A stretch of 64,000 nt of DNA from Candidatus Poribacteria bacterium (lineage in GTDB: Bacteria; Poribacteria; WGA-4E; WGA-3G): positions 1-64,000 of the forward strand of contig JAPOZO010000034.1 of NCBI GenBank assembly GCA_026706025.1, given 5' to 3'. Under the pieces are notes generated by a model that made no database searches, was not told where the DNA came from, and saw nothing but the letters and a program-made list of their open reading frames with translations. The translations under genes and the position numbers were made by a program. Of this stretch, positions 16,881-18,346 are shown one piece after another; the stretch's first letter is position 1; each line of letters starts with the position of its first letter.

Positions 16881-16900
16881 CATTACGGGCTACGGGTTTT

Positions 16901-16929
16901 TATAGTAAAATCCGAAAATAAGTTTACAC
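16901..16929 (+). repeat. 29-base interspersed repeat, copy 2
   Basis: Exact inverted copy of 7418-7446, starting TATAGTAAAATCC. It directly abuts a GGGTT/AACCC palindrome at 16939. Confidence 0.8.
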
Positions 16930-16938
16930 TTTTCGCTC

Positions 16939-16965
16939 GTAGGGGTTGGGTTACCCAACCCCTAT
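16939..16965. repeat. Palindromic repeat of the GTAGG...CCTA(C) class
   Basis: GTAGGGGTTGGGTT, then ACCCAACCCCTA: long inverted arms around a TTA centre. A near copy sits inside the giant TPR gene at 30154-30180. Related palindromes with different arm sequence are at 23477-23498 and 56727-56747. Confidence 0.7.
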
Positions 16966-17002
16966 GGTCTCTCCAGTGTGCAAATAATTACGGGTTCTAC
17001 TA

Positions 17003-17040
17003 TAATTTATCTTGCGGAGAGACAACGTGTGTCTGAACTA
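17003..17040 (-). repeat. Diverged orphan copy of the shared leader
   Basis: TAATTTATCTTGCGGAGAGA followed by a stretch like the sequence next to the 16761 copy (CGTGTGTCTGAACTA against CTGCGTCTAAACTA). No gene starts beside it, so part of the leader region has been duplicated. Confidence 0.55.
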
Positions 17041-17125
17041 TAACAGATTCCAGCGTTATCATAATCTTCAGCGTCAAAACTCCGTCCTCGTAGGTCGGAG
17101 ATGTAGACGCTGCCTATATTTTTTC

Positions 17126-17154
17126 TTGACAAAGATTGCCAAAAATGTTAAAAT
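17126..17154 (+). promoter_or_regulatory. Near-consensus sigma-70 promoter on the plus strand
   Basis: TTGACA at 17126-17131, a 17-base spacer, and TAAAAT at 17149-17154. It is the best promoter match in the window and points into about 330 bases with no ORF, toward the structured region and hairpin ending near 17480. Confidence 0.7.
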
Positions 17155-17159
17155 GTTCA

Positions 17160-17486
17160 TCGTGTTCGGCATTGGTTGTGACTGATGCATTGGTATATTG
17201 CTTGATATTTCAGACAATCACGTAAAAGCCTCACACGACTGAAAAATATCTAAAATATGCTTGTCAGTCGTTAGTTGGGAAAGATTGCTTAAAAGCACAT
17301 CCCATTTGAAATCAACGACTCAAAACTTTTCGTAAGGTGCTTTACAGCACGCAGTTAGGGCATTACCTGTTGCAGGAGGCTACAGAAGACTTGTCTATCG
17401 CAAGCAGTGGTCGTTGATAGCACGATCTGCCCCGCTCAGGGTGTTTCTAAGAATCCCCCTGCTTTAGCGGGGGGAGTATGTCAAAG
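17160..17486 (+). ncRNA. Candidate structured RNA / IS200-IS605-type element remnant
   Basis: No frame of useful length on either strand. Nested stems are visible: AGTCGTT (17266) with AACGACT (17314), enclosing TGGGA (17276) with TCCCA (17300), enclosing TGCTT / AAGCA. An alternative 8-bp stem pairs ACGACTGA (17235) with TCAGTCGT (17264), mutually exclusive with the first. Further small hairpins are GTGCT/AGCAC (near 17337-17350) and CCTG/CAGG (near 17367). It ends with a 9-bp hairpin at 17454-17475 around TTTA followed by GAGTATGTCAA. The AATCCCC-CTTTAG-GGGGAGTATGTCAA pattern is the kind of right end seen in IS200/IS605 elements carrying tnpB, whose right ends form guide (omega) RNA. No tnpA or tnpB frame remains. 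Read as a decayed or non-autonomous element, or a free-standing RNA. It converges with the LamG gene. Confidence 0.5.
17454..17475. mobile_element. IS200/IS605-like right-end hairpin
   Basis: Stem TCCCCCTGC / GCGGGGGGA (one T-G wobble) with loop TTTA, followed by GTATGTCAA. It matches from memory the subterminal hairpins at IS605-family right ends. It may also serve as a terminator for the convergent LamG gene ending at 17501, though no T-run follows. Confidence 0.5.
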
Positions 17487-17500
17487 AGATATTTTGTCCA

Positions 17501-18346
17501 TCATTTTAAGGTTGTTTTGAGGGTGGCCCACACAATAGGCAGTTTCTCGGATGCCTGAACGGACAACCCGATTTTCGATTTAAAGTTTCGGGTCACTTCG
17601 CGAGCGGTTAGGGGTCGATCATAAATGCGGACTTCATCAATGACACCGGGGAAATGCCTGCTGACAGCACCGCGATTGTTCCCCGCGCCGATAAAGATGG
17701 GTTGTACAAATGGAACAAAATTGTCGAGTTCCTTTGCGTCGCCGGCGATGATCTCTTGTGGCTCACCGTCCATATAAATACTGACTTCGGCTTTACCAGC
17801 GTCTACGATTGCGAAAACGATATGGTGCCATTGCCCATCGGAGATCGGAAATTCAATTTCAACAGGGATAGCATTGCAGCCTGCCGCCGATTTTTGACGG
17901 ACATAAAAGTGAATGACCCCTTCAGCAAACGGGAATCCTGCTAATGCGCTCCGGTTGGGTTCAATTGCCCATGCCATGTTACAACCTTCGTCGAGAACTT
18001 TGAAAAGGGTTGTCCAGTTATCTTTAAAACTGGTTTTCATCCAAACCTCAAAGGTAGATGTACCGATTTTCTCTCCAAAATCGCCGAGGTTTGTCAAGTT
18101 GACATAGTCGTTAGCACCGTCAAATTCGAGTGCTTCTCCGACTTGTCCGTCAACGATTTTCGGGTTACCGACGATTCTACCATCATTTTCACCCCAGATA
18201 TCCTTAGCTGTAAAACCATCAATGTCTTGTTCGTCAAACGTCCAATAACTGACGAGTCCATCTGTTACGATGGGTTGTGCATGCCCGTTTTGGAAAGACA
18301 TGGTAATAATTAGCGTGATTGCGAGGAGATAAATTAGGCTTTTCAT
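17501..18346 (-). CDS. Secreted LamG-domain protein (tandem copy A)
   Basis: 281 residues from the ATG at 18346, which has AAAGGAG nine bases upstream; the longer frame to 18379 is less likely. Signal peptide (LIYLLAITLIITMSFQNGHAQ), then a LamG/concanavalin A-like domain: DGLVSYWTFDEQDIDGF, GEALEFDGANDYVNLTNLGD, STFEVWMKTSFK, QWHHIVFAIVDAGKAEVSIY and the closing PGVIDEVRIYDRPLTAREV. Such domains bind sugars or proteins at the cell surface. The last 30 residues (KIGLSVQASEKLPIVWATLK) resemble a short conserved tail seen again in copy B and in the LamG gene at 48997. Tandem duplicate of 18484-19326, about three quarters identical by eye. Confidence 0.85.
   Translation of the reverse strand: MKSLIYLLAITLIITMSFQNGHAQPIVTDGLVSYWTFDEQDIDGFTAKDIWGENDGRIVGNPKIVDGQVGEALEFDGANDYVNLTNLGDFGEKIGTSTFEVWMKTSFKDNWTTLFKVLDEGCNMAWAIEPNRSALAGFPFAEGVIHFYVRQKSAAGCNAIPVEIEFPISDGQWHHIVFAIVDAGKAEVSIYMDGEPQEIIAGDAKELDNFVPFVQPIFIGAGNNRGAVSRHFPGVIDEVRIYDRPLTAREVTRNFKSKIGLSVQASEKLPIVWATLKTTLK

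Follow-up and report, generated by a model that had tools for sequence, protein, structure and literature searches.

A protein-less IS200/IS605-type element of Candidatus Poribacteria and its probable trans-acting TnpB guide RNA

The element and its insertion sites

We analysed a stretch of 64,000 nt from the sponge-associated bacterium Candidatus Poribacteria (assembly GCA_026706025.1, contig JAPOZO010000034.1, positions 1-64,000 of the forward strand), hereafter called the window. It encodes, at 17060..17484, a non-autonomous IS200/IS605-type element of 425 bp that lacks any ORF. All window features described below are on the plus strand. The first-pass annotation had placed the element at 17126-17486; it does lie there, but its left limit is 17060. 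It is immediately preceded by TTAT (17056..17059), the target site and presumed transposon-associated motif (TAM), and its left end carries an imperfect hairpin of the form CAGCGTC-AAAA-CTCCG...CGGAG-ATGTA-GACGCTG (17069..17112). A separate repeat with the ends TATAGTA...TACTATA is found just upstream (16906-17006). The first 100 bases of this repeat recur at many sites in relatives, with approximately 88-96% identity, and it looks like another miniature element.

The element is repeated in the genome. When positions 17080-17500 were searched against the assembly that contains the window (G000, 6.27 Mb in 103 contigs), nine places matched. Besides the window copy they comprise four long copies, three short pieces and one match next to tnpB. 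The long copies are on other contigs (71-83% identity), which makes five protein-less copies in this assembly, and with a wider query they begin at 17056 or a few bases before it and end around 17485 or shortly after. Most full-length copies in relatives, whose numbers are lower bounds because four candidates were scored per genome, also begin at the same base and finish at a fixed tail: the left boundary in BLAST is TTATC in many copies, and the sequences before it are unrelated. Genomes G015 and G011 hold 97% identical copies within unrelated flanks.

Empty sites delimit the element precisely. For each of the five G000 copies the two flanks were fused and used as query against 38 genomes of the genus. 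Contiguous, element-free matches were found for all five sites, and the junction could be read in four of them (the fifth, that of copy L004, was too diverged). At these junctions TTAT, or a close variant, is joined straight to the right flank, i.e., to the base that follows GTCAA in the occupied site. Empty sites usually lack the C at 17060, which was therefore counted as the first base of the element. None of the read junctions showed a target duplication. Precise insertion at TTAT without duplication is a hallmark of the IS200/IS605 mechanism, as are the subterminal hairpins at both ends (17069-17112 and 17455-17474). Both hairpins are shared with tnpB elements (the left one has the same design in L013 and L082-L104), and the left one also occurs in two tnpA elements of other species (L247 and L249). 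A non-autonomous element, one of the options raised from the sequence alone, is thus supported by the precise insertions and by the empty sites of relatives. One insertion is orthologous between G000 (L003) and G015 (L056): its 150-bp flanks are 100% identical, yet several positions distinguish the two elements, a hint of gene conversion between copies.

The G000 assembly has five matches to Y1 transposases, and none of these loci carries the left end of the element; its present mobility in this genome is thus putative. Two other genomes, G006 and G017, encode elements whose left end is of this kind, followed by a TnpA of 155 aa and then by a frame resembling tnpB. They are possible sources of transposase, and we found no element of this kind in G000.

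A promoter-driven RNA without a reading frame

Downstream of the left hairpin, TTGACA (17126-17131) and TAAAAT (17149-17154) are separated by 17 bases and match 11 of the 12 consensus positions of a sigma-70-like promoter. The strong promoter reported in the first-pass annotation is therefore present, and its design recurs in relatives. Promoter scores of at least 9/12 were obtained in 34 of 40 element copies, always with a spacer of 17 bases, against 6.6% of 2000 random 80-bp windows taken from the same loci. Four of the 40 copies, including two of G000 (L002 and L003), score only 6/12. In locus L048 (G007:C47, minus strand from 1556) a small ORF (MSQATSNQHDPDMLDEYDF...) immediately follows the same left end with a TTGAAA-N17-TATAAT promoter, an arrangement that looks as though a gene had appropriated the promoter of the element, or the promoter had captured a gene.

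The predicted transcript has around 325 nt within the element and encodes no protein, as had been proposed: the longest stop-to-stop stretch within 17161-17484 is of 43 codons. Its fold is stable (z = -3.10), and none of 100 shuffled sequences was as stable. In an alignment of 14 full RNAs we found support for 12 helices, with 94.5% of the cells paired, a figure favoured by the fact that the structure was mostly derived from the same alignment. Both sides have changed in 33 of the 59 pairs. The covariation score was 0.429, compared with 0.067-0.120 when the partners were slid by 1-3 columns, and it was reached in none of 500 shuffles.

The RNA starts with a 5' domain (17160..17238) closed by a helix between 17160-17165 and 17233-17238. 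It is followed by a middle stem, AGTCGTT/AACGACT (17266-17272/17314-17320), which encloses two nested stems (17266..17320; helices 4-6), and by the hairpin GTGC...GCAC (17337..17350; helix 7), in which three pairs have changed on both sides. The nested stems seen in the sequence alone are thus real and covarying. So is the terminal hairpin with CTTTAG, CCCCCTGCTTTAGCGGGGGG (17455..17474; helix 12), which recurs in other copies together with the GTATGTCAA end. In the window copy the alternative, mutually exclusive stem noticed earlier is present as 9 bp between 17311-17319 and 17410-17418. It is no conserved switch, however: of its nine pairs, three are broken in five or more of the 14 relatives, and one pair only has changed on both sides. 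In the window copy a single pair is mismatched in stem 1 and another in the inner 5' helix, and given these two mismatches the copy may be starting to decay. No intrinsic terminator was seen at the right end, so the transcript can run into the flanking DNA.

Known RNA families gave little. There was no Rfam match at the gathering threshold in the whole window, nor any tRNA or tmRNA. The sole hint was HgcC (RF00062), an RNA of archaea, with 25.0 bits in the window copy and 32.2 bits in copy L002 for a threshold of 50, and we rejected membership in this family. The likeness concerns the right-end hairpin with its CTTTAG loop; the RNA described here differs in being bacterial, longer, and preceded by its own promoter. 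In T. kodakarensis, three of the five expressed HgcC RNAs are described as coming from transposase genes and two as not doing so (PMC4247193). The combination of IS605 ends with a large structured RNA is also the layout given for IStrons (PMC4227781), and the element might then be a self-splicing or another ribozyme element. We give this explanation very little credence, the least of those considered here, because the RNA begins inside the element, at an internal promoter placed after the left end, and because no group I or group II intron of Rfam was matched, up to E 5 in 16900-17700, E 0.5 at eight other loci and E 0.1 at five more. The group I intron that an IStron has on its left side was accordingly not found.

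The omega-RNA core and its pseudoknot

The last 134 nt of the RNA (17351..17484) correspond to the 116-nt scaffold of ISDra2, as far as the latter is described in PMC10097598. This core is 75% identical over 131 bp to that of the tnpB locus L013 in BLAST searches. We built a covariance model from 22 cores (R1), which matches the window core with 140.8 bits and also finds the core at the 3' ends of tnpB genes.

The core also has the pseudoknot expected of such an RNA, in which the loop of stem 1 (17359-17363) pairs with the bases just before the guide (17478-17482). This pairing lay outside the structure model that we used. In 58 distinct cores retrieved by motif search, GGCAT or GACAT occurs with ATGTC (46 cores), and GATAG or GGTAG with CTATC (12 cores). 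All 58 pair at five of five positions, a figure to which the motif contributes since it fixes the loop in part; mismatched combinations of loop and tail, which the motif permitted, were never found. A helix of at least five pairs was found in 74 of 78 distinct R1 matches, in some of which the longest helix is in an alternative register, and its mean length of 4.94 over the 78 matches exceeds the maximum of 300 shuffles (4.63). On the evidence of sequence and covariation, the 3' 134 nt of the RNA are a scaffold of the ISDra2 type with its pseudoknot. The right end had been likened to the guide-RNA scaffold of TnpB systems, and the presence of the same end and core on intact tnpB genes, with a pseudoknot that covaries as in ISDra2, bears this out.

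By analogy with ISDra2, the presumed guide is the flanking DNA read past the right end (17485..17504), directly 3' of the element, which resembles the empty site of the relative G027. Such an RNA would be expected to bind TnpB and direct its cleavage beside the TAM. Searches beyond genome assemblies added little: a plasmid collection gave a single partial match of 38 bp, and five pattern matches in IMG/VR, none with an R1 match, were taken as chance.

TnpB genes and tail types

The earlier statement that no tnpA or tnpB remains is true of the locus, but not of the genome: besides the five Y1 transposase matches, the G000 assembly has eight matches to the OrfB zinc-ribbon domain. R1 matches nine places in this assembly, of which five are RNA-only, three overlap or abut tnpB (on contigs C35, C49 and C10), and one is a fragment. 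On C35 the match coincides with the 3' terminus of an intact tnpB gene (C35:29075-30232). The element that contains this gene begins with TTATC like the window copy, and shares with it the promoter, the GTATGTCAA end and the design of the left hairpin. A genome search for intact IS605 elements with the same ends, which had been recommended, was thus successful. The product of this gene (P0001, 386 aa) matches the Pfam OrfB_IS605 and TNB domains, and aligns with the TnpB of ISDra2 (E 1.8e-37) including the Asp, Glu and Asp of the RuvC domain. The C35 gene is an intact, cognate-looking tnpB on another contig of the same assembly. In this genome RNA-only copies outnumber the presumed nuclease five to one.

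R1 matches were found in 35 of the 38 genomes of the genus, 202 altogether (summed from the table). The tnpB loci fetched with P0001 fall into two tail types: those ending in GTATGTCAA (L082-L100) encode proteins 56-100% identical to P0001, and those ending in CTATCAC (L101-L109, and C49 and C10 of G000) proteins 39-43% identical. In either type the core is at the 3' end of the tnpB gene, and both tails occur among the RNA-only copies. The single-contig genomes G005 and G010 encode no TnpB resembling P0001 (best identity 42%). Among their fetched R1 matches, the tail of the 19 classified RNA-only copies is CTATCAC in 18 and CTCTCAC in one, never GTATGTCAA, a tally that omits L280-L282 and L288 (R1 scores of 45-60 bits and no right end recognised by the motif) and the tnpB-associated L283. 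In G000, where both types of TnpB are present, all five RNA-only copies have the GTATGTCAA end. The draft genome G011 counts against a strict rule linking tail and TnpB: it has an RNA-only copy of the GTATGTCAA type, yet no TnpB resembling P0001 (best E 1.7e-71). In one locus (L300/L095, G009:C44) two omega-RNA cores are in tandem around 1.1 kb downstream of tnpB.

A guide RNA acting in trans

We propose, with a probability of about 0.72, that the locus is a protein-less, non-autonomous element of the IS200/IS605 family whose sole product is a promoter-driven omega RNA, acting in trans with TnpB (and TnpA) encoded elsewhere. What can be read from the sequences is the insertion at TTAT, the ends in common with tnpB elements, the covarying RNA with its scaffold and pseudoknot, and the intact tnpB on another contig. 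The orphan omega RNA, listed in the first-pass annotation as an option apart from the non-autonomous element, is thereby supported and is the same thing. Transcription would continue past the right end and add flanking sequence to the RNA as its guide. The RNA would then be bound in trans by the TnpB of another element, so that the present element would supply the guide only. The complex would cut TTAT followed by the guide sequence, i.e., the empty site left after excision, or that of an uninserted sister or incoming allele. Repair from an inserted copy would then restore or spread the element, and TnpA supplied in trans would move it. The ISDra2 TnpB with such an RNA is reported to cut DNA beside the TAM, and cutting of the donor joint has been proposed (PMC8612924). 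A preprint presents TnpB as a gene drive on plasmids (PMC11870625).

The RNA could also have been captured by the host as a guide for gene regulation. Nuclease-dead relatives of TnpB are host-adopted guided gene regulators, the promoter is strong, and the element adjoins a LamG-like gene (named from its sequence), pointing to the 3' end of that gene. Yet P0001 has its catalytic residues and the guide is different in each copy. The guide of the window copy matches seven places of the genome with at most three mismatches, against 12 for a reversed control, and every match other than itself has three mismatches; there is thus no second target in G000 above the control. Considering also that the copies are at unrelated sites and that the family behaves as a repeat, we regard the free-standing regulatory RNA suggested earlier as very improbable.

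The guide RNAs of TnpB are normally cut from the tnpB message. With free-standing, promoter-driven guides in excess of their presumed nuclease, one TnpB would serve many guides, in a CRISPR-like manner. The elements would also permit a direct test of whether protein-less elements persist or spread with a borrowed nuclease.

A 5' module found on three core types

The RNA upstream of the core has no match in tnpB DNA. It constitutes a module of approximately 190 nt that covaries by itself and begins where transcription is predicted to start. Across 58 distinct 5' domains, compensatory changes maintain the helices: the outer one occurs as GTGT/ACAC, TGTAT/ATACA, GCAA/TTGC and TTGTAA/TTACAA, and the inner one as TGTGATTG/CAATCACG, TGTAGTTG/CAACTACG, TGCAGTTG/CAACTGTG and TGGAATTG/CAATTCCG. 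The outer helix scores 4.34 for a maximum of 4.0 in 1000 shuffles, and the inner one 7.24 for a maximum of 6.74 in 300 shuffles.

A pattern search for the module in genome contigs gave 106 stretches. Among the 80 matches listed, 46 are from named Candidatus or uncultured Poribacteria, and 25 of these 46 have an R1 match compared with none of the 34 others, which were taken as chance. We found no TnpB DRDxNAA motif up to 1.8 kb downstream of the module in any of the 46 loci, a result that is firm for 30 of them, the other 16 holding less than 1.6 kb. Fourteen loci that we read (11 from the pattern search and three more) carry the module on a third core type, with a GTACC..TGAC end and another left end; this core also matches the tnpB loci L110, L111 and C63 of G000 (L012). 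The module is thus found in Candidatus Poribacteria on three omega-RNA cores, each of which is also present at the 3' end of a different set of tnpB genes, and this is the surprising part of the finding. Modules have been exchanged: copy L005 combines a core of the window type with 198 initial nt that share 85% identity with the third-type element L183. Another kind of 5' module was seen in 12 loci, on cores of the first two types. Two loci, L044 and L040, have the same left end and promoter, another long interior RNA, and a right end matching the third core type.

The tnpB elements have a structured leader that differs from the module. In L082-L096 (about 1416-1495) it has the form ACATGGTG...CACCATGT, with the variants ACATCATG/CATGATGT and ACATCGTG/CACGATGT, and ends in GTAAAGG ahead of the start codon. 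GTAAAAGCC is likewise the end of the RNA-only module, and a common origin of leader and module is possible.

These data bear on two further explanations. The element could be a passive deletion derivative, similar to a MITE or PATE, that hitchhikes with TnpA by means of its end hairpins and whose RNA is residual. Derivatives consisting only of IS605 ends are described (PMC7290912), the G000 copies are old and diverged (71-83% identity), and the window copy has its two helix mismatches. Still, helices that covary over the whole length between transcript start and guide would not persist if the RNA were unused, and neither would a pseudoknot that agrees with the tail type or a promoter whose spacer is constant. 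The 5' module, moreover, was not found on the tnpB elements examined. We thus consider this explanation unlikely. It is even less probable that the RNA is a decoy, whose 5' extension would let it occupy TnpB without productive cutting and so shield the host or rival elements. All three core types have RNA-only copies, and a binding scaffold retained next to an extra conserved module would fit a decoy, but this needs neither read-through into the flank nor an intact tail, whereas the tail is kept and no terminator was seen. Moreover, in the accounts of ISDra2 the 5' region of the RNA is dispensable (PMC10097598) and TnpB processes the 5' end of its own RNA (PMC10278001), so a long 5' region is not needed there.

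Under the trans-acting guide that we favour, the elements would permit asking what the conserved 5' extension does, given that it is dispensable in ISDra2. As a guess, it stabilises the free-standing transcript or adapts it to use in trans. The broader claim would be that Poribacteria have a class of elements whose sole product is a dedicated trans-acting guide RNA, with a portable 5' module grafted onto the cores of three TnpB subfamilies and absent from protein-coding elements; we advance it tentatively, at slightly below even odds. On this reading the elements would be a natural case of guide RNA and nuclease split into independent, co-evolving genetic units, a separation presumed to have occurred on the route from TnpB to CRISPR-Cas12.

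Relation to known systems and range

The closest known RNA is the omega RNA (reRNA) of ISDra2 in Deinococcus radiodurans. According to PMC8612924 and PMC10097598 it has a similar 3' scaffold with stems 1, 2 and 3 and the right-end hairpin, the pseudoknot between the loop of stem 1 and the bases before the guide, the right flank as guide, and a TAM that is the target site. The ISDra2 RNA comes from the 3' end of tnpB, whereas the Poribacteria element is a separate, promoter-driven and ORF-less gene with a conserved 5' module, and its target is TTAT instead of TTGAT. The PATE and MITE derivatives of IS200/IS605 are likewise protein-less, with end hairpins, and presumably moved by TnpA in trans (PMC7290912). 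They are described there as ends only, which does not suit an element whose interior holds a covarying RNA and its own promoter, and we rejected this class.

Stand-alone omega RNAs of IscB, in which the guide RNA is encoded away from the nuclease, were reportedly found by Altae-Tran et al. in 2021. They are alike in this respect but have the guide at the 5' end, whereas it is at the 3' end in the TnpB type of Poribacteria. In the open-licence literature we found nothing on Poribacteria with TnpB, and no title describing nonautonomous, standalone or trans-acting TnpB guide elements, a silence that is weak evidence for the novelty of protein-less guide-RNA elements. We class the element as a non-autonomous member of the IS605 family that carries a stand-alone omega RNA. 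With R1 at E 1e-4, the core was found in 52 of 84 genomes of the phylum and in six of 21 genera, all of them in the family or order of the window.
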